A DNA stretch of 64,000 bases from Liolophura sinensis. Its lineage: Eukaryota; Mollusca; Polyplacophora; Chitonida; Chitonidae. Under the pieces are notes generated by a model that worked only from the letters and a program-made list of their open reading frames with translations, did not search any database and had not been told where the DNA came from. Position numbers and translations under genes: made by a program. Shown here piece by piece: positions 18,188-57,230 of this stretch. Position 1 is the first letter of the stretch. Each line of letters begins with the position of its first letter. Location of the stretch: assembly GCF_032854445.1 (NCBI RefSeq), contig NC_088299.1:6547001-6611000 (forward strand). Reading direction: 5' to 3'.

Positions 18188-18249
18188 GTACGAGTGGGGG
18201 TTCGAACCCACGTGGACTGTTGTCCATTGGAACTTAAATCCAACGCCTT
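18188..18249 (-). pseudogene. tRNA-Leu(UAA) 3' part, cut by a LINE at the A box
   Basis: On the minus strand the tRNA runs from GGCGTTGGA through loop TTTAAGT (anticodon UAA) and TCCAATGGACAACAGTCC to GGGTTCGAACCCCC and the acceptor CTCGTAC. A T6 Pol III terminator follows directly. The 5' part (acceptor, D arm) is missing: immediately before GGCG lies the A-rich tail of the LINE that occupies 18250-23850. The junction falls where the intact gene would read GGTTAA^GGCG. Confidence 0.85.
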
Positions 18250-18974
18250 TCTTTTTCTTTTGAAAAAAAATGTTATTTCCTTTCATACAGAAATACAGGA
18301 TAGCTCATACTCATATTCAAAATCGTGGCTATGGTTTTTAAAAAAAGAAATATCACATATATAACATAGGCAATGAAAGAGCGATATATCCAAAACATAT
18401 ACATCAAAATTATACACATAGATCACGCATATATATTACCACAGTTGCCTGACCATACAGATAACATGTATTTATAAAAGACCTGAACATCATCTGTGTC
18501 ATTTATTTTAACAAAATGATTGTATTTGATATATTTTGCAACGAAGTTGAATCCTGTTATTATGGTAAAATGTCTGCCTCTTTAACTTTTCTGTAAAGAA
18601 GAGCTTTGAAAATTTTTTCAACACACAGATCCGCTTGTTAGCAAGCACAAAATCCTCCGCTTCCATATCGCTAGTCCAGCACAGTTTAAGACAATGTTAG
18701 AAGAGAAAACAAGGTTTTGCATGTCGAAAAGGATACCCAAAGAGCAGCATACATTCAAAACTGACACTCATCGGCGTGTGTCTGAGCAACGTTTCAGTAA
18801 TATTACCAACATATTTTATAAATTGGGTTAACATAGGGCAATGGATCACTAAATGGATTCCATATGCGTTTTACAAATAAGACACAGATCACTATCCACA
18901 TACTCTATTTTTTAAAAGTTTCTTCACTGTATACACAGAATTATGACAAATTTTAAAATCCAACTGAGTACAAT

Positions 18975-19227
18975 TTATTTATTTATTTGATTGGTATTTT
19001 TACGCCGTACCCAGGAATATTTTCACTTATAGGACGGCGGCCAGCATTATGGTGGGAGGTAACCGGGCAGAGCCCGGGGGAAACCCACGACCATCCGTAG
19101 GTTGCTGGAAGACCTTCCCACGTAGGGCCGGAGAGGAAACCAGCATGAGTTGGACTTGAACTCACAGCGACCGCATGGGCCGAGAGGCTCCCGGATCATT
19201 ACGCTGCGCAAGCGCGCTAACCAACTG
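18975..19227 (-). mobile_element. SINE-A nested in LINE1, 11-bp target duplication
   Basis: In minus orientation it runs from CAGTTGGTTAGCGCGC at the right to the (AAAT)n tail at the left, 253 bp. CTGAGTACAAT flanks it at 18964-18974 and 19228-19238. The first few head bases are missing. Insertion into the LINE fixes the order of events: LINE first, SINE later. Confidence 0.95.
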
Positions 19228-21396
19228 CTGAGTACAATCATGTCCCTTTCCAGGTCATACAGTACAACTCCATAAATGATCGACATCAATGTAGGAAAAA
19301 CCCTTAACCAATGCCGAACTGAGGCAGGCTCTGCCAACGTTTCTGTGAATAGCTTGTAAAATTGCTTGGTTATCAAGTCTGAAGCTGACATACTACCTCC
19401 GTTAATATTTAGTTTCGGTTCGGGGCAGGTATTCCTGCTTGTTGTACAAGCAGTAGCACTTTTATCTACTATTCTGAACCATCGCTGTGGAATAGTCTCT
19501 TTAATAATTCTGTATATGGTGTCTCTCTGTGCAAGGTCAGCCTCAGGGAATGTCTAACACAATTTCGCTGATAGCTACCTCTGGCAGGAATCCGGAATGC
19601 ATTCATATAAAAAAAAATCACGCACACAGAAAAGCTTGAATTGATAAACAGTTTGAAAACAAAAGCCTACCATTAAGTTTCACACTGGCGTTTAAAATAC
19701 TGGTTGGCTAAGTACCTTTTTCCCGGCTATCAATACACAGTTTAACTCTTAATTTTGTCACGCTAAAATAACTCCTTGTAACCACTCTGATAAAACATCA
19801 AGCAAATATTTATCCCGAAAAATGCAGAAAAGTGAATAAATCTCTGACACGAAATACTATTTCGACAGAAAATATGCAAAAAACACTTTCCACAATGCTC
19901 GATAATTCTGATTACAAAAAAAACACCCAACATTTTGAGGCGAAAGGCCCCCACCTTGGTTTGCAATGTCTGGCATATGTAAGTCACAGTTTTTTTAAAA
20001 GAGTTAACAACAACCCCATACGCTATTAGATGTCCCCGGTGTGACCAGGAGGAAATCTACGCATACGGCTCTGACCTCATTAATCTGTTTCTCTAGAACT
20101 GGCAATACAGCCATACAATACCCACGATCTAGACATAAGTAAGGTCGTAATAACTGCGACTCTCTCCCATGTAAGCGATAGTCGTCTTTGTTTCCTTGGG
20201 TTTAAAATAGACTTGACTTCGTTTATTTTTCCGTTCCAGTTTTCGTCATAACATGCTGTTTTACCAGGCCCCAATTTGAACGCCCAGTACACAGATGCTG
20301 TGATTAACCACATGGATACCCTCAACTGTACGATCGTGGCGGTCTGTACACATAGGTAATATCTCTGACTTTAATTTTGCGTTAGACGCTTTACCACACA
20401 AAATAACAGTTTCTATATATAACATATTTAACACACTCTCGCTCATTTAAGGTTACCGTTGTGTCATCTGCATGTTGGGATATCAGACACTTTTCCGGGG
20501 AGCCCGGAAGCCCTTGATATTGTTTCTTATCATATCCCCAAAGGGTTCCACACTAAGTGCATACAACAAGGCAGGAATCAGACACCCTTGCCTAATTGAT
20601 TGTCCACTTGAAAAGTATATGGTGATATGACCATTACACTTCACAGCATCCCGCTAATCGGTATAAAAGATGGATATCCATTTGCGGAATTTCTTTCCAA
20701 AGCCAAATTGTAACAACACTCATGTAAATATTGGTGTGACACCATACAGAAAGCTTTTTCCTGTCTACCTTTATAAAATGGGATTCAACATCATCAATTT
20801 CCATATATTCTATGGCGTCCCTCAAACTAACAAATAGTATCAGCAATACCACGCCCAGGGATGATTACACATGTTTGCGACGGATCAACAACACTGGCGA
20901 TGACATTCGTGATCCCGTTGGCCATACAGCGGACAAAATCTTGTCATCCACATTTAAACGTGATATTGGCGTCTAGTTTTTTTAGATTACATTTTATCTC
21001 CTCGGTCTTTGTAGATCAAAGAAATTACGCCATTTTTAATGACTCGAGTTAATTCCCCTCTTCTGAATATGTCACCGTACGTCTCTAATAACAAGGTGCC
21101 CAACTCAGGCCAGATTAATCTGTAAAACTCGACAGTTAGACCGTCATTAACTGGACTTTTATTACATGCCATGCCGTCAAGTGATCTCTTTATCTCTTCT
21201 AAAGAGATATCTGCATCACAAAGTTGTGCGTCATTCTCTTCTATGGAGACATCAACACATGACAAAACTTTTTTGGAAGCCCCTTCGTCAATATCTTCTT
21301 TCTTAAACAAACTGGAGTAGTGCTTATAGACCACATGTGTTGTTTGAAGTCGCGCTTTCTCCACTATCGTCAATCAGGCTGGTGATAATTTTTTTT

Positions 21397-21590
21397 CCTT
21401 GTCTGTGTTTCTCTAAGTTTAGAAAATATTTAGTATTTGTATCGCTTTCATGAGTATATTGAGCTTTCGATGTTAGAATTGCCCCATTACATTTCCTTGT
21501 CTGTTTCTACGATTAGAAAATTCTGAGTATTTTTATCGCTTTCGTGAGTATACTGAGCTTTCGATGTTAGAATTGCCCCATTACATTTTT
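21397..21590. repeat. 98-bp tandem duplication inside LINE1
   Basis: Two adjacent copies start with CCTTGTCTGT at 21397 and 21495. Both contain GAGTATACTGAGC/GAGTATATTGAGC and CTTTCGATGTTAGAATTGCC. The duplication lies within the ORF2 linker. Confidence 0.88.
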
Positions 21591-21810
21591 CTTCTTCATA
21601 TATACTCAATCTATGTTCTAATTCAAAAATACGATCATGATTATAATTATCGATTACACTTGTTCTTCCATACCCACTTTCTAACTCTCTTTGCATCTTA
21701 TTAATTTTAGGGTACAGCTCTTTACTCCTTTTTACACCAAACTGCTGAGCCAAACTTTTCAGTTTGTATTTGAGATTATCCCACCATACACATACGTCGT
21801 TCTTATGTAA

Positions 21811-22268
21811 CGGACATGTTAACGGGTCATTTATACATCGTCTCTCCTTGGTGCAAAATTCAAAAACGATGCAGATCAGGACCGATTTCAGCCGGTGAAA
21901 AATCACACATCATATAGACTACAGCATGATCACCAAAGGACGAATTATTCACATATACAGATTTACAATTGACAACAATTTCCTTGGAGATTAACATGTG
22001 ATCTATGCGGCTCTGGCACAATGTATTGAAAAGACTTAGTATTTTTATCGCTTTAATGAGTATACTGAGACGGACATGTTAACTGCTCATTTATACATCG
22101 TTTCTCCTTGGTGCAAAATTCAAAACAATAAGACTTGGACCGATTTCAGCCGTGTGAAAAATCACACTTCATATAGAGTACAAGACGAATTATTCACATA
22201 CACAGATTTACAATTGACAACAATTTCCCTGGAGATTAACATGTGATCTATGCGGCTCCGGCACAATG
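21811..22268. repeat. 260-bp-period tandem duplication inside LINE1
   Basis: Copies begin at CGGACATGTTAAC at 21811 and 22071 and share CATTTATACATCGT, TTCACATA-ACAGATTTACAATTG and GAGATTAACATGTGATC. The join between copies reuses the TTTTTATCGCTTT segment of the 98-bp repeat, so the second duplication probably used that homology. Confidence 0.88.
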
Positions 22269-22899
22269 CATTCTCTACAGTTCTGTGCCACGTAAACATG
22301 ATTCTTCAGGGTTTTCTTTCACGCCAAATATCAACTAGGTTATGCCTTGACATCAACTCTTGTTATTTCCCCCTGGACTTATCATTTTCCAGGCGCTTAG
22401 ATGCCCTATCTATCGATCGGAAAACCACATTGCAATCCCCAACGCATATTTTCGCATTCCCTGTAAGAAATGCTTTTGTTAAAAAAATCATATCGCTCTG
22501 CTATTCTATTAGGAGCGTAAACATTTACAATATCTATGATTTTGTCTTCTATTTCCAAATTCAACTGATTAGAATTAATCGTCCCCTCATTATCAGATGT
22601 TACACCCATAACTTTGTCTATAAGGGATATGGCACTAATAATAGCAACCCCTTTTGTGCAGTCCAGCGGTTACTGGCATCGACTTTGCCTTCAGTTAACC
22701 GTTCTACTTTACTTACGAGTTCATCATCAAAATGAGTTTCTTGCAGGCAAATTCTCTCCATTCAGTCCGTTATACAGGCGCTGGAACTTATTTGCTGTTC
22801 GTTCACCTTAACAGTTGAGTGACGTAATCAGCACCATTATGGGACGGGAAGTTATTTTATTGCGCTCCATTGTTCGGCTTGTTGTAAGGCACAATTCTT

Positions 22900-23850
22900 C
22901 TTGAACGAGACAAATTCAGCACGGGTTTATTCTTACGTCGCCTTGTAGTAAACGATTGTAAAGTCTCAAAGTCTCAGAAGACTGGGAGCAAACCCAGGTG
23001 CGCTCGTTCTCACCTGTACCTTGCGTCAGTTCTCCTATGGCTAGGACCGCCCTCACAGTAGTTTCACCATTGATATTACGGCCAACTAGCTTTCCATTCT
23101 GTGGAATTCCTTTTCCTCTGATCCACACCATTGTTTATCTCGTCATCTGGCTTTACGTCGGCAGGTCGAAGGGGGCACTGACTGAAGGCTCTCCGTCTCT
23201 GCACACTCGTAGTATGCAGCCCACAGCGCCCACAAAGTCCAGAGTTCGTGTCACAGCTACAGTCCTCTGAATCGCAAACTTCACACAATGAGCAATGGCT
23301 CTTCCGTATTGGTGACAGCCAATACATCTGTCCGCATGGCATGCATGGGCTACATGCCCTCGCTCTCCGCACTGTAGCACTTAAAGTCCGGGCATTGGCG
23401 AAATATATGGTCCTCTGCCAAACACAATGAACACACCTTCTGATTATCATGGACAACTCAGAAATAATCCGCATTGTCTCCAGAAGAAAATTTCGAGGCG
23501 TATGATAGAGATTTTACATTCTGAGGGGACTTTTTGCCGTCAGTCACTTTGGTGTCAGGATAAAACTTCCTTTTAATATCCGAAAGGATTTCCACGCGAA
23601 ATTCATCCAGTTTCTTTACTATGTCATTATCATCCACATATGCAGATAGGTGCAAAAAACGACAAGAATTCTCCGTACACGCATTAAATTGACCGTCAAC
23701 TTCAAATCCATCACCCAGCAAATCACCCGATGCTTTGTCCACAATTGTTAGCTCGTATTTCTCAGCCCCTTTAGGTACACGGGCAAGTAAGGCGTTTAGT
23801 AGACACGCCTTTCTACGACTCAAAAACTTTCTCTGCAGAAATTTTTGCAT
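22900..23850 (-). pseudogene. LINE1 ORF1 remnant (nucleic-acid-binding protein)
   Basis: The fragment from 23850 to 23458 (about 130 codons, opening MQKFLQRKFLSRRKAC) is followed in another frame by zinc-knuckle motifs around 23380-23250 (CGERGHVAHACHADRCIGC, a CCHC pattern, then HCSLCEVC). This is the usual layout of ORF1 in Tx1-type LINEs: an RRM-like or coiled region followed by CCHC knuckles. Frame shifts separate the pieces. Function in the family is RNA binding in the retrotransposition particle. Confidence 0.7.
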
Positions 23851-24039
23851 CAGGTGTTTCTGTTAAAAAAAAGTGCATATAATAATAACCGGTGAAAGTA
23901 TCTGGTAAAAATGCCATTCCTGCATGTTGAAAACAGGCCAGGTTACAACGTAATCTTGGGTAGCTGAAAAACTTTAGTTATAAGAATGGTTTTAAATAGA
24001 TTGACTGCTACAAAAGGCAGGTAGTGTGACATACAATCT
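23851..24039. repeat. Partial monomer of the tRNA-Leu array, no tRNA
   Basis: This matches the array spacer from CAGGTGTTTCTGTTAAAA through AATAATAACCGGTGAAAGTA, an internal deletion, then AAACTTTAGTTATAAGAATG and GTGTGACATACAATCTGAAC. It lies between LINE1 and the LINE-tailed element at 24040, and is the leftmost piece of the large array. Confidence 0.85.
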
Positions 24040-24328
24040 GAACTCTCTTTTTTTTTGGAGAAAATAATAATTTATTTACAGTTGAACAAGGTACATACAA
24101 ATTGACTGTAAACAAAATCATGTCACAAAGCAGCATTTCAAACAACAATATCACAGACAAAATTTGATCTGCTTTTCTGAACATATATCCAGCTGTTTTA
24201 TCGAACACACAAGCTAGTTGTTAACACAAAAAAAATTTGCAGAACACATTATTTTTTTTTCTGGCGAGGTTCGGATTCGCGACCTCCTGCGAGCAAAGCA
24301 GACGTGATAACCACTACACCACAGAACC
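24040..24328 (-). mobile_element. Probable SINE: tRNA-Val-like head plus LINE-family 3' tail
   Basis: On the minus strand a tRNA-Val-like body (see 24257-24328) is followed by an A-run, about 130 bp of unknown sequence, and a 3' segment with TTTTGTCTGTGATATTG and CTGTAAATAAATTATTATTT, then poly-A at 24040-24055. That 3' segment resembles the 3' ends of the LINEs at 24423, 30261, 44804 and 51992 (TCTGTGATAT ... AATAAATT ... poly-A). This is the architecture of a SINE mobilised by a partner LINE through a shared tail. Alternatively a 5'-truncated LINE landed beside a tRNA-Val pseudogene. No target-site duplication was found. Confidence 0.5.
24257..24328 (-). pseudogene. tRNA-Val-like sequence, anticodon loop altered
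   Basis: The minus strand reads GGTTCTGTGGTGTAGTGGTT, then ATCACGTCTGC, loop TTTGCTC, and GCAGGAGGTC. The D arm and anticodon stem match animal tRNA-Val closely, where the loop would be TTTACAC (anticodon UAC). Here positions 34-36 read UGC. The T loop is altered (GAATCCGAACC) and the last two acceptor pairs are replaced by an A-run. It is a pseudogene or SINE head. Confidence 0.7.
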
Positions 24329-24821
24329 AATACGTGTTTATTTGTGTATATAGCTTACCAGTGTAGAAGTGTTTGCCTTGTCATGAGAAATCGATATGTC
24401 CACAAGCAAAACGTGGTAAGAGTTTTTTTTTATTATTTTTTTTTTGAAGAATATAATTTATTCACAGTTCAACAATATCAGGAATTACAAATACACATTG
24501 AGGTCTAACAGATATAATGCATAACCCACAAAGCTATTTACGTTAAAATAAACATATCACAATATCTATAGCTTTGTGAGATATCACAGTCAAAATCACA
24601 GGATTGAATTATTCATCAGAAATATAAGTTTGCCATAAGTTTGTCAAAAGACATTGATTTTACACCAACGTGTTGACTGTTAACTATTTGTAAGTCAACA
24701 TGTTTACGACTTTTGATAATACCCTTAACAGTTCTAATGATTAAAGTTCACGTCCCCTATTTTTTGTCATCGAACACATTGTCATTTTTGGTGCACCATA
24801 CAGAAAACTGAATGACACTTA

Positions 24822-27800
24822 TCAGGTACAAACATACTGGTAAATCTTGCTTGTCAATGTGGCCATCAAATAATCTGTATATAATGTGTTTTGTATTCTA
24901 AACGGGAAGCAATTTGCGTGCAGGAAAAACACTCGCACAAAATGATCAATCACTTGTTGCATCACCTGACATTCCACAAATAAATGGATTTCAGTCTCTG
25001 AGTGCTGACAAAATACACACGAGTCGTCGGTGACCACATTCCTTCTCAGCAATCTCTCTTTTACAGGTAAGATATCGTGGACTAACTTATAACCGAAGTT
25101 AACTAAGTTGGGATCAAGAACAAGTGAAAACCCGTCTCCCATACAACCCATACAACGCCCAGTCCAACTGGGGGAACTTAATTGCTCTAGGCAATTCGAC
25201 ATACTTTTTAATTAAGTTCCCATAGATATATTTGGTGCTATACATAACGAGAGGAAGGTGTTGCCCCGTATAAAATAACCTCCAGGCATTCAGTGCAAAT
25301 GTGTAGAACAGTGGGGCAGTTTCTAATGTGACATATTGGGTCTTCCGAACTCTGGTTTTACATTCTTTAAAGATAACCTTAACCAGTATATTGCAAAGTA
25401 TGTCCAATCTGCTGCACACCCATATACTAATTTCAAAATATGTTTAATTGCTAAAACCTTAAATTTACATTCTATATGTTGGATATTCAAGCCGCCAGCG
25501 GCAAATGTATTACAAACAACTGATCTATTTAAACATTTCGGCTTGTTATTCCATAAAAATCTAAACACAGTTTGGTTACACTGGGCTAAAATTTTTGTAG
25601 GTAAAATAGTACACTGTGCTGCAAACCATAATGCAGCTAATGCCACTGTGTTGATTAACACTGACTTGCCACTTAAAGTTAAAAATCTATTATTCCACGA
25701 GATTACATTCTTGTTTACCTTTGTAAAAATACGTTCCGAACTGAGTTCAGCATGGTCAATCACCAAACTATAAACCACAAATCTTCGCATTCTTACGGTC
25801 TTTAATCCAACCTCTGGAGAGTGGTAGCCTATCATTCCATTTACCAGTTGGAAGAGCCACACTTTTTGAGAAGTTCAGCTTCGCACCAGATGCTTTACCA
25901 TACATTTCATCAACAACCTATAACCTCAGGAATGAAACTCTCGTCAAAAAAAATTACTGTGGAGTCATCAGCAAAAGCAGACACCTTAGCCTGTTTGTAC
26001 CCCGTGGATGTTAGCGTTATCCCTAACTGCAGCTATTAAACGGTTCCCGAGATAACACGTATAATGAAGTCTTAACGGACACCACGTGATAAACTAAATG
26101 AGTCAGTCATATGGCCGTTTACAATAACACTACTCGATATAACCGTATATAATAGTTTTACCCAGTTACAAGAATCTGGTCCAAAATTAAACTTTTAAAG
26201 AAATTTAAATAAAAAACACCAGTCTACTCTATCGAAGGCCTTTTCCTGATCTAAATTTATAAAACAATCCTTCGGGTCTTTCTGTTCAATGAAATCATAT
26301 GTATTACGTAAAAAAATAAGGGTTATCAAATATACTCCTACCCGGAATGTCACATGTTTGAAACACATGCAAAACCATAGATTCAATAACACCTTTAAGG
26401 CGATTGCATAAAGCCTTTGACACAGTCTTATAGTCAACATTTAATAAGCTAATAGGTCTCCAATGTTTAATGATTTCTGAATTATTTGGATCTTTACACA
26501 ATAACGTTATCAATCCAGATCGTTGAGACGCACTTAATAACGCAGAGCTAAAACAAGAATTAATAACGCGAGTATACATTTCACCAAACACTGGCCAGAA
26601 CTGAACATAAAACTCCGATGGCAAACCATCGTTTCCCGGTGAGCGATACTTGCACATATTTTTGACAGCGCATAATAATTCCTGCTCCGTTAACACCTTC
26701 ACACAGTTCCTTAAAATCATCGCTTATTTCCGGTAATCCGAATAAAAACAATTCTCGCTCAGCAGGATATAAAATTTCAATGGTCTACAAACCCTCATAA
26801 CACGAACGTATACAACTACCAATATCACGTTGACATTTATGGGCAACAGAACAATCCTTATGACATGTAATATTTTTAATCATTTTCTTTTTAGCTCTGC
26901 CCACTTCCCGTCTAATAAAGTATCTAGTGGGTTTCTCCCCCTGATTAAAATACGTAGCTTTAACCCTAATAAGAGCCCCCTCACGAGATGCGTTATGTAA
27001 CGCATTTATTGCCTTTTTTTACATCAGCAATTTTATTACAGTTACTCACCGGATCACCATTTAACTCATTCAACTCTTTCTCTAAATCAATGAGTTGACC
27101 CTTCTTTCTTTTGGCAACAATACCACAATGAATTCGAATAGCCTCCTTACAGGCACTCTTAAACTTATCCCATGTATTGGTAAGATCTTCATCAGTAACA
27201 CTTTCGCAGTTGACAAACAGGTCATCGTATACATTTTTAATTCTGACAACAAGGCCTTCATTTGAAAGAACAGAAACATTGCATTTCCAATGAAAAAGCC
27301 CCCGTGAAATGACATCTTTAAAGGATACATCAAAATAGGCACAAGAATGATCAGAAAATAAGTGAAGTAAGTCACAAGAGGTTACATAATCTTTCACAGT
27401 AACAGGCATATAAAACCGATCAAATCTACAAGCGGCTTGGCCTCCAGACCAAGAGTACTTTCTCTTATCAGGATAAAGTTTTCTAAAAATGTCACATATC
27501 CCGAAATCAGTTTTTAAAGCATTAATTTCACGAAAACCATCATTTCTGGCTTGACTATTGACACCAGATTTATCTAATGTATTATTTTCAATAAAATTAG
27601 TCTCCACCAAGAATCACAAGGTCACTACCAGACATTAACACATTTAGACTAGAGATAAAATCCTTTCTTTCTTTTGCATTATTCGGGGCGTACACACATA
27701 TCAAGATAATCGCTGTATTATTAATGCCCACCTTGAATGCTAAATAACGCCCAAAAGGACACCTCGTAACTTTCTTAAAATCGCAGTCAACAGTATACCT

Positions 27801-28061
27801 CATAATTATGCCCACCCCACATCTCCTGTTCGATCCGTAGGCCCATCTCGAACCTCCAGGTATAGTCAAACATTTAGTATCATTATAATTATGAAAATGA
27901 GTTTCCTGTAGAAGCAGGACATCAATACCATTATCAAGCATGGATGATTTAACATATTCTTGTTTAGCAACATCACACAAACCGTTTACATTCAGAGTAC
28001 CGAAGTGAATTGAACTAAGACCTGATATTACAACAAATAGAAAAAAGACGTACCTACCCAT
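24822..28061 (-). pseudogene. LINE2 ORF2 (endonuclease-reverse transcriptase), frameshifted
   Basis: The endonuclease at 28061-27380 shows FGTLNVNGL, LLQETHF, VYAPNNAKERKDF and LVILGGD, continuing with FSDHSCAYFDVSF. The linker and RT at 26720-25860 show GNDGLPSEFYVQFWP, LITLLCKDPNN, WRPISLLNVDYK and NLDQEKAFDRVDW. The FADD-bearing segment around 25950 is damaged. The C-terminal region at 25860-24822 includes the CVFCQHSETEIHLFVEC zinc finger. At least six frame changes make it inactive. Protein role in the family: nick target DNA and copy LINE RNA there. Confidence 0.9.
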
Positions 28062-28284
28062 TGGTAGAATGTATGATGTTCAATGACCATAGTCTTAGTC
28101 TCTGGACAAACGTCTTCTCCCACGGGAGGCAATGGACTATTTTCGATGATATTCCAACAACATGTTGGAACATTCCTGGTTGGAACATTATCATCTAAGC
28201 ACAATGTCTCCTCACCTGACTCACTGGAATCCAGATTAGCATCAGAAACTATTTCACCGTCTGGACCCTCCTTTGAATCCTTCT

Positions 28285-29450: not shown

Positions 29451-29530
29451 ACAGTAAATCGACAAAATAAATACGTTGTTGTTGCACACAGGTGTAAACA
29501 ACGGAGATCTTCAATCTCTGAAGGCTAGCA

Positions 29531-29573
29531 TGAACTCCGAACATAGCGCCGTAGACCGCTCGGCCATCCAGAC
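29531..29573 (-). pseudogene. tRNA-Leu 5' half at the LINE2 junction
   Basis: The minus strand reads GTCTGGATGGCCGAGCGGTC, then TACGGCGCTATGTTCGGAGTTCA, and then LINE2 begins. Acceptor, D arm and the A box are kept. The match ends within or just after the anticodon loop. The 3' half is not found at the other end of LINE2. Confidence 0.8.
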
Positions 29574-30112
29574 TCCTATGATAGCAAGTGACAATTCAGT
29601 AGCGTGACTGACGTTTCAAAGTTAAGCAATACAATTTTTGCAAACTGCATGGAAAAATTTGTTTGGATTTTTACAATACTGAAAACTCAGGTGTTTCCGT
29701 TAAAAAAGGGCATAGAATAATAACGGGTGAAAGTACCTCATGAGCGTCGAGTCCGGAGGGTTTTGGCCACAGTTAGATCAGCATAGATTTTTGGCCTTTC
29801 GTTTATCGGCAACATGGCATGTACCAACCGGAAGGAAAAACTGAGCACATTTATGGTCTAAAATGGATGGATTAAAGTTTTTCAAATGTCATTCCTTCAT
29901 GCTGAAAAGAGGCCAAGTTATAACATAATCCTGGCCAGCTGAAAAACTTTAGTTATAAGATTGGTTTTAAATAGATTGACTGCAACACACGGTGGGTGGT
30001 GTGACATACAATCTGAACTGATTAGGGATCTGGCTTAAAGGTGTTTAAAATACTTCGAAGCGTTCCTTGTGTGACAGGCACACAAATATTTTTGTATTTC
30101 CCAAAAATAAGT

Positions 30113-30195
30113 GTCAGAAGTGGGATTCGAACCCACGCCTGGAGAACCAGACTGCGACCTGAACGCAGCGCCTTAGACCGCTCGGCCATCCTGAC
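30113..30195 (-). tRNA. tRNA-Leu(CAG), consensus copy
   Basis: This 83-nt class II tRNA has acceptor GTCAGGA/TTCTGAC, A box TGGCCGAGCGG, anticodon loop TTCAGGT (anticodon CAG), long variable arm and B box GGTTCGAATCC. It is identical to the array consensus and close to animal tRNA-Leu(CAG). A T5 run lies about 6 nt downstream as Pol III terminator. The right flank is cut by LINE3 about 65 bp upstream of the gene. Confidence 0.88.
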
Positions 30196-41160: not shown

Positions 41161-41244
41161 AAAGGTATTAAAATAGTAAAAGCGTATCGTGTGAGGTATC
41201 GTGTGAGGTGCACACGAATATTTTTGTACTTCCCAAAAATAGTT

Positions 41245-47640: not shown

Positions 47641-48432
47641 AACAGAAGTGTTACATTTCCAATAAAACGGACCCCAAGTAATTACATCCGTAAAATTTAC
47701 ATCAACAATAGGACAAGAATGATCAGAAAAGGAGACATGTTTAACATCACAAAAGGTTACATAACTCTGAACAGCATTAGGAAGGTAGAATCTGTCAAGC
47801 CGACTAGCGCATTGGCATCTTGACCAAGTGTAGCACCGTTTGTCCAGATGAAACTTCCTAAAAATATCTCACACTTCAAAATCATATTTAATACTATTAA
47901 TCTCATCAATACCAACATTTCTCACATTATTTGCAGACCGAATTCTATCCAATATAATATTTTCAAAGCAGTTAAAATCCCCACCAAGAATGAGTAATTC
48001 ACTCCCACGCATTACACTGTCTAAGTTAGAAATGAATTCTTTCCTATCCTGTGGATTATTAGGAACATATATACATATCAGATTAAGAGCCGTGTCATTA
48101 ATTGTCACTTTAACACTTATGTAACACCCGTTAGGATATCTAACGACATTACGTATTACACAGTGAACAGTGTATCTAATCACAATCCCTACCCCACAAC
48201 TTTTACTTGACCCCTATGCACACCTAGCATCCCCTGGAATTTTAAAATTCCTAGCGTCCTTATAATCTTGAAAATGTGTTTCTTGTAAGAACAAAATATC
48301 AATATTGTTATCAAAAACAAATTGTTGTACCTTTGTAACAGCGCTAAGGCCATTAACATTTAAAGTGCCAAAACGTATGTTAGATACGAGAGACAATAAA
48401 CAGATAAGAAAAATATGAAGGTACATATCCAT
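47641..48432 (-). pseudogene. LINE5 endonuclease part of ORF2, stop-containing
   Basis: FGTLNVNGLSAVTKVQQF and LFLQETHFQDYKDARNF end at a stop after DARCA near 48214. The frame resumes at MIRYTVHCVIRNVVRYP and reaches LILGGDFNCFEN and IKYDFEV before another stop near 47869. LDRFYLPN and SFSDHSC motifs follow in the same sense. The APE-type catalytic motifs are recognisable, but the chain is broken at least twice. The first stop is shared with LINE4. Confidence 0.88.
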
Positions 48433-48474
48433 TGTTCATGTGGGAGCATATCCATGTCCATATTCTGGTAAAAT

Positions 48475-49205
48475 CTATTCATTGTCTTTACGCGCTCTCG
48501 AACGAGAGGCGAAAGATTTCCTACGCCGGTACTCTAATAACATTTTATCAGTACCTTGAGAGGGAGTGGGTGTCATGATTTCAGATATGTCCGAGTCCCC
48601 CTGCATTACGCAATCCGACGGTAGAGTGCTCCATAATTCCGATGACGTCCCCTCCCGTTCATTGTCCAGTCTTGCTCTCTTTCGTTCAACGGGCTCTGGA
48701 GATCGCACGCAGTGGACATCCGCCTCGACTTTTATCGCACCAGACAAATCTCTGGTCACACCATCGCGGTCTTTGGTGACATTAGGTACAACTCGCGTAC
48801 CTCTGTCACACTCCATGTCACCCACTGAATCATCCTCCGCTCTGGTAGCGTCAATCTCAGTTTCGTCATCTGCGCCCATTTCTTCGTTATCATCATCCTC
48901 ACCATCACCACTATCACCATCATCATCACTACCTACGTCAACATCATCATCATCATCATCATCATCTTCTCCTTCGGTGTCAATTGTGTTGTTGTCCTTG
49001 TCCAGTTTAACCATTTCAATGGCAGGAGGAGGAAACTCTAAGTCATCGTCGTTGCTACCGCCCCCAACAACGTCAACGTCAATTGTGACGTCCTGATCGG
49101 GGCCCTGCACACTCACTGTATTCTGCACAGAATTCTTCACTTTGGACGCATACGTTAAAGCCAGAGCACAGCAATTACCACATGTATGCTCCATCGAGCC
49201 ACATA
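48475..49205 (-). CDS. LINE5 ORF1, N-terminally truncated, otherwise open (239 codons)
   Basis: Open from MEHTCGNCCALALTY at 49194 (preceded by in-frame LCRICGS) to the end at 48475. The RRM-like region and first knuckle are missing because of 5' truncation. A long acidic tract (48880-48970, mostly GAT-encoded Asp) and a basic C-terminus RKSFASRSRARKDNE remain. It cannot act as a full gag-like protein. Confidence 0.85.
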
Positions 49206-49286
49206 TACGACAAAGGTATTAAAATAGTAAAAGCACATCACCGTGTGAGGTGCACAAGAATATTTTTGTAATTCCCAAAAATAGTT

Positions 49287-49369
49287 GTCAGAAGTAGGAT
49301 ACGCACCAACGCCTGGAGAACCACACTGTGACCTGAACGTTGCGCCATAGACCGCGCGGCGATCCTGAA
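49287..49369 (-). pseudogene. tRNA-Leu pseudogene, duplicate of 41245-41327
   Basis: Carries the same B-box (GGTGCGTATCC) and D-arm (CGCCGCGCGG) changes as its partner plus two more (TTGGTGCG; first base pair lost). This supports joint duplication of LINE and tRNA. Confidence 0.88.
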
Positions 49370-49760
49370 TCACATGTTAACAAGTTACAATTCAGAAGCG
49401 TGACTGACGTTTCTAAGTTAAGCAATTTTACCTAACTGCAAATAAAAATTTGTTTGTATTTTTACAATACTGAAATCTCAGGTGTTTACCGTAAAAAAAA
49501 CTTCATAAAATAACAACCGCTAATAGCATCTCATTGGTGTCGAGTCCGGAGTTTTTTTTGACCACCGTTAGATCAGCCTATTTTCTTGGCCTATCGTTTA
49601 TCAGCTACATGGCATGTACCAACCCGAAGAGAAAACTGAGCACATTGTGGTCTAAAATGGGTGGATTTAAATGTCATTTATTCATGTTGAAAAGACGCCA
49701 GGTTATAACATAATTCCGGGCAGCTGAACAACTTTAGTTATAAGAATGGTTTTAAATATA

Positions 49761-51289
49761 CTATCCAAAAAAAGAAACGCATAACCCGGTTTTTTGCGGA
49801 GGTGATGCAGTCTTTTCAATTATGCATAACTAAATAAGAATTGCTATTCTGCAAAAAATTTTTGACACAGATTAAGGAAGGGTCCATATCTAGACAACAA
49901 GGCCATCAACTTGAGGTAAGACACTCACAATGAGTCTCCCACTTGAGTGGAATGTCAGTATCTGTTGTGACCACCACGGGCACGAATAACAGTTCTGACA
50001 CGCCTTGTCATGGACTGGATGAGACGCTGGATAGAGGCCTGGGGAATGTTCTGCCACTCCTCCTGCAAACATGCAACTTGCTCTTGAAGCGTTTGGGGTT
50101 GAGGTTGACGTTGGCGTAGACGTCGATCAAGTTCATCCCACAGATGCTCAGTTGGGTTAAGATCCGGGGAACGGGACGGCCAGGGTAGCACATTTACATT
50201 GTTTTCAGCGAGGAAGTCCCTTGTGACACGTGCCGTGTGCGGTCTGGCGTTGTCCTGCTGGAACAACTCCCGCTGAACGTCAATGACAGGTAAGAGATGT
50301 GGCTGCAGGATGGTGTCTCGGTAGCGTACGCCCGTAAGATTTCCCTGAACGTGGACAAGATTTGTACGACCAGTATACGATATTACTGCCCACATCATCA
50401 CACTCCCTCCACCAAATCTGTCCACTTGGCGTACGCAGTTAGGGGCATAACGTTCGTGAGCACGTCTGTAAATCCGGTTTCTACCATCACGTCTCTGCAA
50501 TAGGAATCTGGACTCATCACTGAACCAAATGCGTCGCCAGTTGCGTAGATTCCATGCAGTCACGTTGTTACACCATCGGAGGCGATTGGCGCGATGGTGA
50601 GGACGCAGCATGATCCCAACATAGGGCCTCCTGGCTCTCAGTCCATGTTCCCTCAGCCTGTTCCGCACTGTCTGACCTGATATCCTCCTCAGTCCCGGTA
50701 TGCTGGCTGCTGTGCTTTCAGCTGTAGCACAACGGTCACGCAAATGGAGGACCCTTATGTAGCGATCTTGGGCTGCTGTAGTGACACGTGGTCGACCTGA
50801 ACGCCGGCGGTCATTTGTTGTCCCAGTAATGTTGTAGTGGGCAGCAAGCCGTGAAATCGTGCTCTGGCTGACGTGTAGACGCCTAGAAATGGACGATTGG
50901 GACTCTCCAGCTTGAAGTCTTCCAATGGCAATATTTCTTGTGACAGTGTCAAGACGTGGCATGTTGAATCAGCTTGAAAACACCACTTGAAAGACGCCGA
51001 TTTCCGGCCCGAAGTTGCGGTTTTATAGTCACACACTGCATGCTTTCCATGCGTAAGTTCGGCGTGTAAGACTGCACGTGATGCAGTGTGGTGCTGTATT
51101 TTTTACTTCTTCCAAAAACGGCCTCCAAACTCAACATTTTCAACCAAGAAATGTTTTGAGGAATAAAATGTGTGCTAACTGTGATTATTAACAATATTAA
51201 AACACATTTTGTTCATGAAATGAAGACAAAATGTATTTATTTCATTTTAAAATAAAACAAAACACCTATGCGTTTCTTTTTTTGGATAG
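49761..51289 (-). mobile_element. Tc1/mariner element, 1529 bp, apparently intact
   Basis: Ends are inverted copies of CTATCCAAAAAAAGAAACGC followed by ATA (23 bp perfect). It is flanked by TA on both sides (49759-49760 and 51290-51291). Removing it restores the uninterrupted array sequence GGTTTTAAATATATAGACTGC. It encodes one transposase on the minus strand with no stop or frameshift. Perfect TIRs and an open transposase indicate recent insertion. Confidence 0.97.
49955..50962 (-). CDS. Tc1-type transposase (DD34E), 335 aa
   Basis: Cut-and-paste transposase acting on the element's own inverted repeats and integrating at TA. N-terminal paired-type HTH around residues 20-45 (SISRRLHVSQSTISRLA), a GRPR-like link at about 56-59 (SGRPRV), a second HTH at 95-110, then the catalytic core. 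D149 lies in WFSDESRF, D237 in QQDNARPH and E272 in PDLNPTEHLWD, with exactly 34 residues between the last two. The glycine-rich RFGGGSVMMW segment (about 182-191) is typical of Tc1. Length 335 is within the normal 330-350 range. The ATG at 50962 gives the expected N-terminus. No inactivating change is visible. Confidence 0.96.
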   Translation of the reverse strand: MPRLDTVTRNIAIGRLQAGESQSSISRRLHVSQSTISRLAAHYNITGTTNDRRRSGRPRVTTAAQDRYIRVLHLRDRCATAESTAASIPGLRRISGQTVRNRLREHGLRARRPYVGIMLRPHHRANRLRWCNNVTAWNLRNWRRIWFSDESRFLLQRRDGRNRIYRRAHERYAPNCVRQVDRFGGGSVMMWAVISYTGRTNLVHVQGNLTGVRYRDTILQPHLLPVIDVQRELFQQDNARPHTARVTRDFLAENNVNVLPWPSRSPDLNPTEHLWDELDRRLRQRQPQPQTLQEQVACLQEEWQNIPQASIQRLIQSMTRRVRTVIRARGGHNRY

Positions 51290-51432
51290 TATATATAGAC
51301 TGCAACAAACGGCAGATTGTGTAACATACAATCTGAAATGATTAAGCATCTGGCTTAAAGGTGTTTAAAATAGTTCGAAGCGTTCAAAGTGTAATAAGCA
51401 CAAAAATAGTTTTGTACTTCCCAAAAATAGTT

Positions 51433-51515
51433 GTCAGAAGTGGGATTCGAACCCACGCCTGGAGAAACAGACTGCGACCTGAACGCCACGCCTTAGACCG
51501 CTCGGCCATCCTGAC
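51433..51515 (-). tRNA. tRNA-Leu(CAG), minor changes
   Basis: Promoter boxes and anticodon are intact. One change in the variable arm and a two-base change in the anticodon stem (GTGGCGTTCAGG) weaken the fold. It lies between the mariner and LINE6. Confidence 0.55.
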
Positions 51516-51952
51516 TCACATGTTAACAAATTACAATACAGGAGCGTGACTGACGTTTCAAAGGTAAGCAATACAATTTCAACTAATTGAATCAAAAAAT
51601 TTGTCTGTATTTTTAGAATACTGTAATCCCAGGTTTTTCCGTTAAAAAAAATGCATATAATAATAACCGATAAAAGTGTCTCATCAACGTCGAGTTTTGA
51701 GCTTTTTGGCCACCGCTACATTAACCTAGATTCTTGGCCTTTCGTTTATTGGCAACATGGCGTGTACCAGTTGGAAAAGAAAACTGAGCACATTTTTGGT
51801 CTATAATGGATGGATTAAGGCTTTTCAAATGCCATTCCTGCATGAGGAAAAAAAGGCCAGGTTATAACATAACTCAGCGCAACTGAAAAACTTTAGTTAT
51901 AACAATGGTTTTCAATAGGTTGACTGCAACACACGGCAGGTGATGTGACATA

Positions 51953-51991
51953 CAGTCTGAGATGATTAAACATCTGGGTTTAAAGGTGTTT
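51953..51991. repeat. LINE6 target-site duplication, left copy
   Basis: CAGTCTGAGATGATTAAAC... to GGTTTAAAGGTGTTT corresponds to 57126-57163 (CAGTCCGAGATGATTAAGC... to GGTTAAAGGTGTTT), with three differences over about 38 bp. The nick site would be TTT^AAAA. Confidence 0.8.
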
Positions 51992-52167
51992 TTTTTTTTT
52001 TTTTTTTTGAAAATTGTTGAATTTATTCCCAGATTGTCATCAAATACACAAGATTTCACAATACCCGGCTATCACAAACTTTTGAAATCACAAGGCAGTC
52101 TTAATTAAAATAAAATATCACAGAAAAGATGACTGCTTTGTGAATAGAACAATTGCACATTAGCTGC

Positions 52168-52975
52168 TCATTTCAATAAATACACTAATTTATCATTCCG
52201 TAATGTACAGAAGACTTTGTTTATACACCAGATTTTCTCGAAAGATGGCCTGTCTAGTCGAAAAAAGTCAACATGAATACGGGTTTTAATTATTCCTTTG
52301 GCGGCCTTAACAATAGCAACAGAATCCCTGTTTTTTTTCTGAAATATTATGTCGTTGCGTGCACACCAAATACTAAACTGAAGAACACATATGACATACA
52401 CCATCACAGCTCTAACTTCCTGGTTAAAGGTGGAATACCTTGTAAATTAATGTTTCCGAGTCCATATTTGGTAGGTAGTTCGCAAACAAAACAAATATCC
52501 GGTTAAAGTCATTAAACACATCCTGAACGATTTTACATTGTACAAACAGATGTTGCCGAGTTTCAGACAGGGAGCAAAAAACACACAAGTCATCGGTGGC
52601 TACATTTCTCCTAAGAAGTTTTTCCTTAACGGGCAAAATGTCATGAACCAACTTGTAACTGAAGTTGACCAAGTTGTGATCTAAGAATTGATGAAAAACA
52701 GTTTTCCATATTCTAACCCAGTCCACATGCGGCATAGACACCATTGCTCTTGGACAATGTACTATTTTTGTTACAAAATATTCATAAATATACCTGCTTG
52801 AACACAATGTTACAGGTTGCTGTACACCTTCTAAATTGGTAAATTCTCTCCAGGCGCTCAAGGCCAGTCTATAAAAAGGTGGAATGTTTTCAGAATGTGG
52901 GACATTGGAACGACAGAATTCACGACAAACATGTCTTAGGGGTAAACCCACCAATAGATGGCAAAGTATTTCCAT
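52168..52975 (-). pseudogene. LINE6 ORF2 C-terminal region, two frameshifts
   Basis: After a one-base loss near 52955 (IYW|WVYP instead of IYWLGLPLRHVC) the frame continues to 52424. It carries the zinc finger CVFCSLSETRQHLFVQC. A second shift near 52435 leads to the last 79 codons (VLQFSIWCARNDIIFQKK to VCTLRNDKLVYLLK-like end) at 52168. Confidence 0.88.
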
Positions 52976-55662
52976 TCCGCTGTTGTTCCATGAATTAATT
53001 TTAAAACATGCCGAGTAACAAGTGCTTTTATTTTACAATCTATATTATGTACGTTTAGACCTCCATTCCCTATTTTATTATGTACGACAACTCTCTTCAA
53101 ACTTTCGGGTTTGTTATCCCACAAAAATCTGAACACAGTTTGGGAACATTGATTGACACATTTAGGTGGCAACAGAGTACACTGTGCAGAAAACCATAAA
53201 ACAGCTAAAGCAACTGTATTAATTAAGACAGACCTCCCCCGTAGGGTCAAATATCTTCCATTCCATGTTGATACATGTTTCTTTGCCTTACTTAAAACAC
53301 GCTCAGAATTGAGTTCTGTTTGATCTGGTCCAAAAAATACCCCACAAATCTTTGAATTTGTAGTGATGTTAAGCCCACCACTGTGCACGTTAGTTTCGTC
53401 CCAGCTACCAATGGGAAGAACCGTGCTTTTCAACAAGTTGAGTTTTGCTCCTGAGGCTTTTCCATAACTTTCTGCTAGTTTAATTACATGCGGAACAGAA
53501 CTCTCTTCAGATAAAATTGCAGTCGTATCATCTGCAAATGCCGACACTCTCGTTTCCTTATTTGTGCCGGGTAACCGTACACCATTAATTTCGTCATTGT
53601 TTCTAATGGCGGCTATAAAGGGCTCTAAGGACAAAACATACAATAATGGTGACAAAGAACAACCCTGTCGGACACCTCGACTCAGTTTAAATTCTTCTGT
53701 TATGTGCCCGTTCACAATAACACTACTTGTAATGTCAGTATATAATAATTGCACCCACTTACAAAAGTCGGGTCCGAAGTTAAATTTCTCTAAACATTTG
53801 AACAAAAATGACCAGTCTGCTCTGTCAAAGGCTTTCTCCTGGTCTAAGTTAAGAAAGCATCCTTTTAAATCTTTTTGTTCAACATAATCATATGTATTTC
53901 GTAATAAGTGAAGGTTGTCAAAAATACTTCGGCCTGGTATTCCACATGTCTGATTCTGAAGTACAATTGTATCGATCACATTTTTTAACCGATTGCACAA
54001 AGCTTTAGAAACAATCTTATAATCTACATTTAGTAAGCTAATTGGCCTCCAGTTTTTTATGCTTTCGGCATTGTCGGGGACCTTACATAATAGTGTGATT
54101 AACCCAGAACGCTGTGAATTACTTAATCTACCCAAGTTAAAACAGTGATTAACTACATCCGTAAACACACCCGAAAACAGTGGCCAAAATTGTACATAAA
54201 ACTCTGCTGGCAAACCGTCGCATCCCGGCGAACGGTTTTTAGACATATTTTTTAGTGCAAAAAACAACTCCTGTTCAGTCAAAAGGCCTTCGCAGGCAGT
54301 TTTACAATCGTCATTTAACATCGGAAGCGATGACAAGAACTCATCTTGAATGGAGGAGTCAGTATCTTGTTCAGTATACAATTTCATATAATACGACCTT
54401 ATACACTTAGCAATGCCTTCCTGAGATTCATGGGATATTGAAGAATCACTATGACAAGTAATACTTTTGATCATCTTCTTTCTGCCCCTACCAACTTCTC
54501 GTCTAATGAAATATTTGGTTGGTTTTTCTCCCTGATCAAAATGAACAGCTTTAGCACGGATAACCGCTCCCGCATGATTCGACTTATAAAGGGCATTTAG
54601 AGTCTTTTTCACATTGTCAATACGCTCACAGTTAATGATTGGACTAGATTTCAACGCATTTAATTCTTGTTCAAGTACCAACAAATCACGTTTTTTGTTC
54701 ATAGATTTTTCCTTACAGTAACTCCGAATCCTATCTTTACATTCCCCTTTAAATGTCTCCCATCTGTCTATTAGATCTGCATGACCAGTTGTACAAACAG
54801 AGAAAATATCATGGAAGACGGATTTAATATCATCAACAAGCTCCGTGTCATTTAACACAGAAGTATTACACTTCCAGTAGAACGGCCCCCATGAAATGAC
54901 ATCTTCAAAAGAGATATCAAAAAACAAACACGAATGATCAGAAAAAGACACATGTACAGCATCACACTGGGTTACATACTTAAACACAGCGTTAGGGATA
55001 TAAAATCTATCCAATCTACTGGCACACTGGCGCCTAGACCACGTGTAACAATTCTTATCCGGATGCAGTTTCCTAAAAATATCACAAATACCAAAATCTC
55101 TTTTCAAATTATTAATTTCGTCCACTCCATCATTCCTTACATTAGTGGCACAGCCAGTTCTATCTAATTCAATGCTCTCAACACAATTAAAATCCCCACC
55201 CATAATAACCAACTCACTGCCCTGCATCACATTATCTAGATTAGAAATAAACTCTTTTCTTTCCTTTGGATTATTAGGGGCATATACACAAACAAGGTTT
55301 AAAGCAGTGTTGTTGAGCTCAACCCTAAGGCTTATGTAGCGACCGTTAGGGCACCTCTGTATTTTCCGTATAAAGCAGTCTACCGTATACCTAATAATTA
55401 TTCCCACCCCACAACTTCGATTTGACCCATACGCCCACCTTGCATCGCCTGGGATTTGCAAATATTTAGTGTCATTATAGTTTTCGAAGTGTGTTTCCTG
55501 TAAGAATAGTACATCAATTCCTTTATCGAAAACAAATTGCTTGACATGTTCTTGTTTAGACGGATCCCGTAAACCATTAATGTTTAAAGTCCCAAAACGA
55601 ATATTATTTAAGCTCATTATACAAGTAAGTAAAGGTAGAGCGTACATACCCATTGTGGTCAA
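52936..55662 (-). CDS. LINE6 ORF2: APE endonuclease and reverse transcriptase (908 codons open)
   Basis: Starts at the ATG at 55662 (MTTMGMYALPLL). Endonuclease about residues 20-265: FGTLNINGL, LFLQETHF (Glu56), GGDFNC (155-160), SDHS (241-244). Linker 270-470 with IRRE. RT 470-760: SPGCDGLPAEFY, LITLLCK, NWRPISLLN, NLDQEKAFDR (Asp607), RQGCSLSPLLY, SAFADDT (Asp711/712). It is cut short by a frameshift before the C-terminal finger. In the family this protein nicks T-rich/A-rich target sites and primes reverse transcription there. All catalytic motifs of both enzymes are present, so only the C-terminal frameshifts and those in ORF1 stand between this copy and an intact one. Confidence 0.93.
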   Translation of the reverse strand: MTTMGMYALPLLTCIMSLNNIRFGTLNINGLRDPSKQEHVKQFVFDKGIDVLFLQETHFENYNDTKYLQIPGDARWAYGSNRSCGVGIIIRYTVDCFIRKIQRCPNGRYISLRVELNNTALNLVCVYAPNNPKERKEFISNLDNVMQGSELVIMGGDFNCVESIELDRTGCATNVRNDGVDEINNLKRDFGICDIFRKLHPDKNCYTWSRRQCASRLDRFYIPNAVFKYVTQCDAVHVSFSDHSCLFFDISFEDVISWGPFYWKCNTSVLNDTELVDDIKSVFHDIFSVCTTGHADLIDRWETFKGECKDRIRSYCKEKSMNKKRDLLVLEQELNALKSSPIINCERIDNVKKTLNALYKSNHAGAVIRAKAVHFDQGEKPTKYFIRREVGRGRKKMIKSITCHSDSSISHESQEGIAKCIRSYYMKLYTEQDTDSSIQDEFLSSLPMLNDDCKTACEGLLTEQELFFALKNMSKNRSPGCDGLPAEFYVQFWPLFSGVFTDVVNHCFNLGRLSNSQRSGLITLLCKVPDNAESIKNWRPISLLNVDYKIVSKALCNRLKNVIDTIVLQNQTCGIPGRSIFDNLHLLRNTYDYVEQKDLKGCFLNLDQEKAFDRADWSFLFKCLEKFNFGPDFCKWVQLLYTDITSSVIVNGHITEEFKLSRGVRQGCSLSPLLYVLSLEPFIAAIRNNDEINGVRLPGTNKETRVSAFADDTTAILSEESSVPHVIKLAESYGKASGAKLNLLKSTVLPIGSWDETNVHSGGLNITTNSKICGVFFGPDQTELNSERVLSKAKKHVSTWNGRYLTLRGRSVLINTVALAVLWFSAQCTLLPPKCVNQCSQTVFRFLWDNKPESLKRVVVHNKIGNGGLNVHNIDCKIKALVTRHVLKLIHGTTAEWKYFAIYWWVYP

Positions 55663-55689
55663 ATAAGAGAGTCCTAATTACGCTACAAA

Positions 55690-57001
55690 TCATTTGTCTC
55701 TTTTCATTCGCTGCCTCGCACGAGAAGCAAGCGATTTTCTTTTCCTGTATTCCAGAAGCATGGTGTCCCCCTCCTGAGATGGGGTCGGCGTCATACAGTC
55801 TGACGACTGATCGGCATCAACACCATCATAATCAGTAGGATGGGAACTGGGCGGGATAGATGACGCTGCCTCTTCGGCTCTACTGCCATTGTCCAACTTC
55901 GCTCGCTTTTCCTCGACTGGGACTGGTGAACGCACGTCGGGAGCGTGCACGTCAGCCACGACCACATTCTTCACCCTTGGGACAGCTGATGACGTTTCAT
56001 TATCACCAACATCCACTTCTTCGGTGTTCTTAGTATTCTCCCGGACGTCCATCTCCTTATCAGACTCGCTGTCGTCGCTGACGTCTTCATCGGCGCTGTC
56101 GTCACCATTCCCGTCGATTTCGTCTTCGTTCTCCTCGCTGTCTTGAACCAGTTCCATAGCAGGTGCGTTGAATGGGTCTTCATCGTCGCTGACGTCAACA
56201 TCAATGTCATCTTGTTTTACGGCGTCTTCCTTATTATCTTATTCTTCCTTATTATCACTGACCGTATGAAGCCCTGAGTCACACATTCGGCATGGATTTG
56301 TACAGTCCTTCTCTGTATGAGGATTCTCATGGGGGAGAAACCGTCGCAGTTAGAACACCACAGTGCTCTACACTCTGCCGCCTTGTGTGATTTTTGGCCA
56401 CACTTCCGACATTCATAAGTTTGCCCGGGGTAGGTAAACATAACAATGTCACCACCGAAATTAATAAAATTTGGTACATAACGAACTTTGTGACACCTAA
56501 ATCTGTAAATCCGAATACCTGTCCGAACATGTGAGAGCTCCGGGTCTGAAAATCTGGGTTTCGTCACACCCAGGCATTCACCATAGGGTTTCAAAGCTGC
56601 CTCGATAGTGTCATCTAACATTTCATCCGGTGCCCAGTGGGCCGTCAGATTCAGGTAAACTGACGACGCGGGCATAATGGACCACGTCGTTCCATTTATA
56701 ACAACATTGGATTTACTAGGGCATTATGCCCAGCCACTGTAGACACGCGGAGATAGAAGTGTTTCTTTAAATAATTCTTCTGAAAACTTATTAGCTCTGT
56801 CTTGATATTTAACACACTTGACAGAAAAGGAATAAAGTCCCTCTGGACAGACGTAGAAAATGCCAGGCTGCTTCGTGTAGAGATTGACACAGACAAAGTT
56901 CTGCTTGGCCTGTTTACAGGCGAAAACGACACGGGCTTGGACATACCTGATCCAACGGGGCACACGCCCTTCACCAAACAGTAACCACTGGCCAAACTCA
57001 A
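55690..57001 (-). pseudogene. LINE6 ORF1 (RRM-like plus CCHC), frameshifted
   Basis: The N-terminal piece (MSKPVSFSPVNRPSRTLSVS, about 56944-56696) is followed after a shift by VYLNLTAHWAPDEMLDD (56675). Then come GIRIYRFRCHKVRYVPNF, knuckle CRKCGQKSHKAAECR, LWCSNCDGFSP, a shift near 56330, and an acidic domain with the end RKRKSLASRARQRMKRDK at 55690. The layout equals LINE2 and LINE3 ORF1: N-terminal region, RRM-like fold, knuckles, acidic tract, basic tail. Confidence 0.87.
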
Positions 57002-57125
57002 GCTCTGTGGGCTCCCAGATCACCAAAAAATCAGTCTCAAAAACAAGCGTTGTTGTTGCACAAATGTGTAAACAGCAGAGAATAACCGACACGTCCGTTC
57101 ACTTCGGCGTCTAGCACACTCTCCC
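57002..57125 (-). other. LINE6 5' leader
   Basis: Sequence between the target duplication and ORF1. A short frame from 57092 overlaps it but has no recognisable motif. In this class of LINE the leader would hold an internal promoter; none can be demonstrated by eye. Confidence 0.55.
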
Positions 57126-57230
57126 CAGTCCGAGATGATTAAGCATCTGGGTTAAAGGTGTTTAAAATAGTTCGAAGCGTTCACCGTGTGACGCGCACAA
57201 AATATATTTTTGTTCTTCCCAAAAATAGCT

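Follow-up and report, generated by a model that had tools for sequence, protein, structure and literature searches.

An L1/Tx1-type LINE lineage in the chiton Liolophura sinensis probably guided to RNA polymerase III genes

Among the long interspersed nuclear elements (LINEs) of multicopy RNA genes, Keno, whose endonuclease is like the apurinic/apyrimidinic type (APE), is assigned to U2 and Mutsu to 5S genes (PMC4640811, PMC3706591), and Dewa, a zebrafish mobile element in the tRNA-Leu spacer, is named alongside R2, Mutsu, and Keno (PMC3706591). The NeSL-related elements NeSL-1_TV, LIN15_SM, and LIN25_SM are given as specific for tRNA-Pro, tRNA-Arg, and tRNA-Glu in an account that counts NeSL among the restriction-like-endonuclease clades (PMC4640811), and Dada DNA transposons are said to target tRNA genes, tRNA-Leu included (PMC3706591). 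As these accounts have it, the animal examples Mutsu, Keno, Dewa, and the NeSL-related LINs are each bound to one kind of gene. PMC5911963 describes yeast and amoebal elements that are guided by the RNA polymerase III (Pol III) machinery; in it, an interaction of the first open reading frame (ORF) product, ORF1, of TRE5 with TFIIIB is listed and, in the comparison with yeast, insertion downstream of the gene is given for dictyostelids only. In the open-licence PMC literature, we found no report of an animal LINE directed at Pol III genes at large. Here we analyze a 64,000-nucleotide stretch of the 609-Mb Liolophura sinensis assembly (C5:6547001-6611000, C5 being contig NC_088299.1; hereafter the window, with window positions marked w), in which five LINE blocks, LINE2 to LINE6, and one old LINE, LINE1, interrupt or adjoin a tandem tRNA-Leu array and share its orientation. 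We propose that these elements belong to an L1/Tx1-type lineage that is probably steered toward Pol III genes whose A and B boxes are internal, functioning like the amoebal TRE3.

A search of the host genome with the ORF2 protein of LINE6 (P0001) recovered at least 57 matches with E-values up to 1e-60, which merged into 49 copies spread over C1-C8, C10-C13, and C23 (the best 50 of 1532 candidates were scored, and shares refer to the matches listed); the best 20 besides the query comprise 19 at 93-99% identity and one at 90%. The sequence-only reading of the window had proposed a lineage directed at tRNA-Leu arrays, and had named unrelated flanks of the copies elsewhere as what would refute it. 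Their flanks are not unrelated: in 23 of the 34 loci read (L016-L049), a junction has a Pol III gene, whole or in part, within ~440 bp, which speaks for directed insertion. The neighbors are, however, far from confined to tRNA-Leu. Within 0.5 kb are 7SL and 13 kinds of tRNA gene, those besides Leu being Pro, Ser, Ile, Ala, Asp, Asn, Arg, Trp, Thr, Phe, Gln, and initiator Met; the letters of L016-L049 include Leu, Ser(aga), Ile(aat), Ala, Asp, Arg, Thr, Trp, and Pro, and coordinates added Phe, Gln, and initiator Met, with Gly at 1.6-6.8 kb. Three tRNA-Pro arrays have copies inside or nearby, and L047 sits inside an array of 7SL genes, which are of the animal type in this host (Metazoa_SRP matches), with a target duplication of 65 bp that includes mismatches. 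The 140-base flank at C11:22.225, compared with the tRNA-Asn pattern, is presumably a decayed tRNA-Asn. As the sole target, tRNA-Leu is ruled out by the other tRNA kinds and 7SL within 0.5 kb.

The same tendency sets this lineage apart from other reverse transcriptases (RTs) of the genome. The control set was an RVT_1 search with 150 matches listed (the best 150 of 3268 candidates), in which the span of the profile match served as a proxy for lineage membership (35 lineage, 115 other). Among these 150, known Pol III clusters are no more than 60 kb away from 30 of the 35 lineage RTs as against 4 of the 115 others, and enclose 13 of 35 as against 2 of 115; the cluster list used here includes 5S as well as clusters that LINE flanks had brought to notice (one of the cluster searches covered the best 63 of 76031 candidates). 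The 60-kb surroundings make up 1.2% of the genome and the cluster insides 0.12%. Old kin of LINE1, found with one LINE1 piece and including a few matches that are parts of one element, comprise 24 matches at 35% identity or above, 15 of them within 60 kb of clusters, and 38 below 35%, 1 of them so placed.

Distance and strand relative to the gene are held in common by most of the insertions that could be placed. The upstream side is known, from letters or coordinates, for 22 insertions (LINE4, LINE5, and the copy at C5:6628985 counted once, and the more distant copy L048, which by eye has a decayed tRNA-Pro ~170 bp upstream, left out). In fourteen of them, the LINE follows the end of a same-strand Pol III gene after 23-161 bp, the gaps being 23 (Ala, L049), 33 (Leu(tag), L037), 50 (L023), 74 (LINE5), 76 (Ile, L046), 92 (Asn, C11), about 98 (L020), 99 (Trp, L044), 104 (LINE6), 117 (Phe, C3:10659338), 126 (L030), 133 (7SL, L047), 134 (Pro, L017), and 161 bp (L028); for 11 of the 22 the 5' gap falls in 40-150 bp, on the gene's strand. 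The coordinate comparison used part of the gene coordinates, and the places of some C5 genes and of two gene pieces in it were approximate; the gaps of the C5 copies came from junction readings and not from these approximate coordinates. The nick could be placed relative to the gene in 11 insertions, of which 8 have it past the gene, by 38, 62, 66, 67 (7SL, L047), about 77, 81-94, 122, and 135 bp, and 3 elsewhere. Target duplications, where present, measure 12-65 bp. On their downstream side, L022, L026, and L046 face an opposite-strand tRNA-Ser 82-101 bp away.

The tRNA-Leu array of the window, with a unit of ~628 bp on the minus strand, runs rightward from w 23817 and beyond the window to C5:6658001. 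Its LINE junctions are as the sequence-only reading had described them: the LINE1 3' end passes into a tRNA-Leu(UAA) remainder opening with GGCGTTGGATTTAAG at w 18247, and both LINE2, at the anticodon loop, and LINE3, after TCTA, start within a tRNA-Leu (Table 1). LINE4, LINE5, and LINE6, which it had put about 85 bp past a tRNA 3' end, do lie beside the tRNA, the 3' junction of LINE5 being ~77 bp past it at about unit position 161 and that of LINE6 ~66 bp past it at about unit position 151 (LINE4 in Table 1); LINE4 and LINE5, however, are not independent. Together with the third copy at C5:6628985 they have a decayed tRNA flank and the 5' junction in common and therefore represent one original insertion, which rules them out as separate hits; the 3' flanks of LINE4 and C5:6628985 are alike, and that of LINE5 differs by ~14 bases. 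Two further insertions of the LINE6 family in this array, L023 and L028, have exact target duplications of 12 and 26 bp, their nicks being 38 and 135 bp downstream of the tRNA, the corresponding distance for LINE6 being 66 bp and its duplication an imperfect one of 38 bp. Relative to the place of the tRNA in the unit, the 3' junction of LINE2 is ~81-94 bp downstream; that of LINE3 is an exception, at unit position 560, ~68 bp ahead of the tRNA and outside the hot spot. In all, 3' junctions of 5 of the 6 independent insertions of the C5 array fall within ~100 bp of the 628-bp unit (LINE6, L023, L028, the LINE5 event, and LINE2 inside, LINE3 outside, LINE1 left out), a stretch that was picked after the data were seen and that other arrays show too.

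Flanks, distances, strand, duplications, and enrichment over other RTs are what we observe. From these we posit that the targets would be tRNA genes of many kinds and the 7SL RNA gene, all with A and B boxes, where a protein of the element may contact TFIIIC or TFIIIB in the Pol III transcription complex, or else the chromatin of that complex; this contact and the role of the boxes are what we infer. The nick would then be made mostly ~40-135 bp downstream of the gene, reverse transcription would be primed there from the poly(A) end, and the new copy would share the orientation of the gene, in many cases flanked by a 12-65-bp target duplication. The poly(A) present in the 3' flanks of the copies read and the target duplications agree with target-primed reverse transcription. 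The junctions seen in the sequence-only reading stand, and its interpretation is partly supported, having been too narrow: the target is broader than tRNA-Leu and the targeting principle probably a different one. We also lean, with less assurance, toward the fuller proposal that an animal LINE lineage, several families deep, finds any Pol III gene with A and B boxes via its transcription complex and inserts downstream, as an independent counterpart of TRE3 that also targets 7SL and spares 5S.

Several observations weigh against guidance to Pol III genes. Eight of the 22 insertions placed by their upstream side depart from the pattern: LINE2 and LINE3 start inside a tRNA; no gene was found in ~180 bp of non-LINE sequence upstream of L018, in 154 bp upstream of L027, or in 155 bp upstream of L031, where an initiator Met follows at 475 bp; and none is near C7:25420279, C3:10667262, and C12:24458103 among the genes listed. 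L024 and L032, read on the 3' side only, have their 3' junction within a tRNA. Target duplications are not clear in the flanks of LINE4, LINE5, LINE2, and L049, and that of LINE3 is uncertain, its flanks overlapping by ~90 bp, which could alternatively stem from array recombination. Among the genes listed, no Pol III gene is near the copies at C8:4.36-4.40, C10:31.08, C10:36.09, C6:11.24, and C13:24.06, and none of the 49 listed copies is inside the arrays C1:70.4 (tRNA-Lys), C1:39.94, and C9:19.6; LINE1 kin come within 26 kb of C1:39.94 and C1:70.4. Moreover, several Pol III clusters came to notice via LINE flanks, and the count was therefore repeated with the clusters found without them: 7 of the 49 listed copies are inside these (0.024 expected) and 10 of 49 within 60 kb (0.285 expected), copies of the same array not all being independent in these counts. 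In the letters read, 11 of the 34 loci (L019, L021, L027, L029, L031, L034, L035, L040, L041, L043, and L045) have no gene, the upstream side being among those letters for 2 of the 11; an Rfam search (E up to 1) of 11 sources whose flanks had no explanation found no match.

That LINEs insert anywhere and merely survive in redundant tandem arrays would account for their occupancy of such arrays, in which a Tc1/mariner element and two other RTs are also found. We consider this unlikely: of the 115 other RTs listed, only 4 are as near as 60 kb to known clusters; the bias is, furthermore, present already in the young copies at 93-99% identity, 14 of 22 insertions have strand and offset in common, and none of the 49 listed copies is inside the 5S arrays on C4 and C238, among the 5S arrays listed. 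Some of the copies owe their number to the arrays themselves: LINE4, LINE5, and C5:6628985 are a single event, copies at C11:22.21-22.24 recur every 6-7 kb (among the best 40 of 64 candidates), and tails at C12:1.90 repeat together with their tRNA-Gln (among the best 40 of 90). The spread of a small number of insertions by unequal crossing over and by exchange among arrays would nevertheless not give the result of the gapped alignment of seven copies, in which each copy has a different target duplication, three at tRNA-Leu and one each at tRNA-Ile, tRNA-Pro, 7SL, and another flank (the seven were chosen since both flanks were read and looked promising, and leading As may come from the poly(A) tail). 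These separate duplications therefore exclude array dynamics as the sole cause, which we regard as the least probable of the alternatives, and leave it to account for part of the copies.

The same seven insertions bear on a sequence-specific endonuclease that reads a word common in these spacers. At LINE6 and LINE5, the site is a run of T with A after it, and the junctions of L022 and L046, which lie in arrays of one kind, differ by ~3 bases, as such an enzyme would have it; by eye, however, no word is common to the seven nick contexts, which makes this a decidedly improbable explanation. Nor do these seven contexts support the single hot spot of the sequence-only reading as a shared sequence. 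With position and strand in common and no such word, we therefore infer that the guide would be the Pol III complex rather than a DNA word, by analogy with TRE5.

In described behavior, the probable functional match is TRE3 of Dictyostelium, an L1-type element that inserts 40-150 bp downstream of the gene in its orientation; the present lineage differs in its animal host with a 609-Mb assembly and tandem tRNA arrays, and in hitting 7SL too. Dewa, for which Kojima and Fujiwara 2004 is reportedly the likely source, is the animal precedent, being by description a mobile element at the tRNA-Leu spacer; that spacer as the only target is not what we find, given the other tRNA kinds and 7SL that adjoin copies here. 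Keno and Mutsu each keep to one gene kind, in contrast to the loose distance from many genes seen here, and no insertion in 5S rRNA genes like that of Mutsu was found for the 49 listed copies in the listed C4 and C238 arrays. NeSL is counted among the restriction-like-endonuclease clades, unlike the APE-bearing elements described here, and Dada comprises DNA transposons that insert within genes, with a separate tRNA target for each family. If true, our proposal would open to experiment the way in which a LINE protein reads a transcription complex, give reason for a new look at Dewa, and offer a route toward DNA insertion at redundant sites.

The ORF2 protein combines Exo_endo_phos (APE endonuclease), RVT_1, and zf-RVT (zinc-binding tail) domains, and its nearest solved structure is human L1 ORF2p (E 2.8e-86), with R2 at 1e-17. 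With an APE domain, an RT nearest to L1, a poly(A) end, and target duplications, the lineage belongs to the L1/Tx1 group of APE LINEs, this placement resting on domains and structure comparison and the label Tx1 being that of the sequence-only reading. An endonuclease of the restriction-like NeSL/R2 type was not found where the APE domain was, no model of the former having been run as such. L018 has open ORFs of 435 and 1164 aa, the first of which shows cysteine-histidine clusters by eye and no match in a Pfam search. The lineage would be several families deep, from the young LINE6 through LINE5, with an ORF2 70% identical to that of LINE6, and families at 55% to the old LINE1 kin, the RT pieces of LINE1 itself being 26-38% identical to LINE6 (tblastn).

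Table 1. Features of the tRNA-Leu array and its LINEs in the window (w positions).
Feature	Position	Strand	Remarks
tRNA-Leu(UAA) remainder holding LINE1 3' end	18188..18247	-	sequence reading; isotype by eye against L018 tRNA-Leu(taa)
LINE1, old, broken LINE	18248..23816 (limits approximate)	-	tblastn and ORF pieces
Array piece downstream of LINE2	23817..24042	-	
LINE2 (block E)	24043..29519	-	5' end = tRNA position 35, in anticodon loop
Array piece	29520..30260	-	with tRNA-Leu(CAG) 30111-30195
LINE3 (block D)	30261..34592	-	5' junction = tRNA position 22, after GGTCTA
Array piece	34593..36894	-	with unmatched stretch 36086-36500
LINE4 (block C)	36895..41160	-	3' junction ~unit position 174, ~90 bp past tRNA 3' end
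Array piece	41161..44804	-	five tRNA-Leu genes or near-genes
LINE5 (block B)	44805..49211	-	starts 74 bp past tRNA 3' end
Array piece	49212..49760	-	decayed tRNA
Array piece downstream of LINE6	51277..51991	-	with tRNA-Leu(CAG) 51432-51515
LINE6 target duplication, 3' copy	51953..51991	-	
LINE6 (block A), full-length, young family	51992..57125	-	begins GGGAGAGTGTG, poly(A) end
LINE6 ORF2 part	52936..55662	-	APE endonuclease and reverse transcriptase
LINE6 target duplication, 5' copy	57126..57163	-	66-104 bp past tRNA 3' end
LINE-free tRNA-Leu array	57126..64000	-	

Within the array of the window, the 415-bp stretch at w 36086-36500 has no match to the array unit, and a Tc1/mariner-type element at w 49761-51276 has an open transposase frame of 335 aa. 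Two tRNA-Leu members have an altered anticodon, w 57847-57930 (CAT, called tRNA-Met) and w 42492-42574 (CAA), reflecting either decay or recoding inside the array. Elsewhere, tRNA arrays of different kinds (Ser/Ile, Ala, and initiator Met; L021, L031, L046, L049, and L025) have common spacer sequence at ~78-85% identity; the spacers at C7:10-22 kb resemble those of the tRNA-Ser/Ile and tRNA-Ala arrays and sit within an initiator-Met array, with no gene directly upstream of the LINE read there. The tRNA at L032:27-117 is called Leu(taa) by ARAGORN; we take it to resemble tRNA-Lys(UUU) with an insert of ~18 bases, and the 3' flank of a LINE copy starts inside such a gene. A distantly related LINE, 30-34% identical to the LINE1 RT piece and with ORFs reaching 1308 aa, is repeated on one strand with a spacing of about 6.1 kb at C2:9947544-9965767, C1:91016647-91047177, C5:297461-310019, C11:10.01 Mb, C13:7.88 Mb, C7:21.80 Mb, and C8:10.90 Mb, as if it formed head-to-tail arrays of its own. 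At w 959-2315, there is a 64-bp tandem repeat of ~21 copies, to which periods of 127 and 255 also fit.

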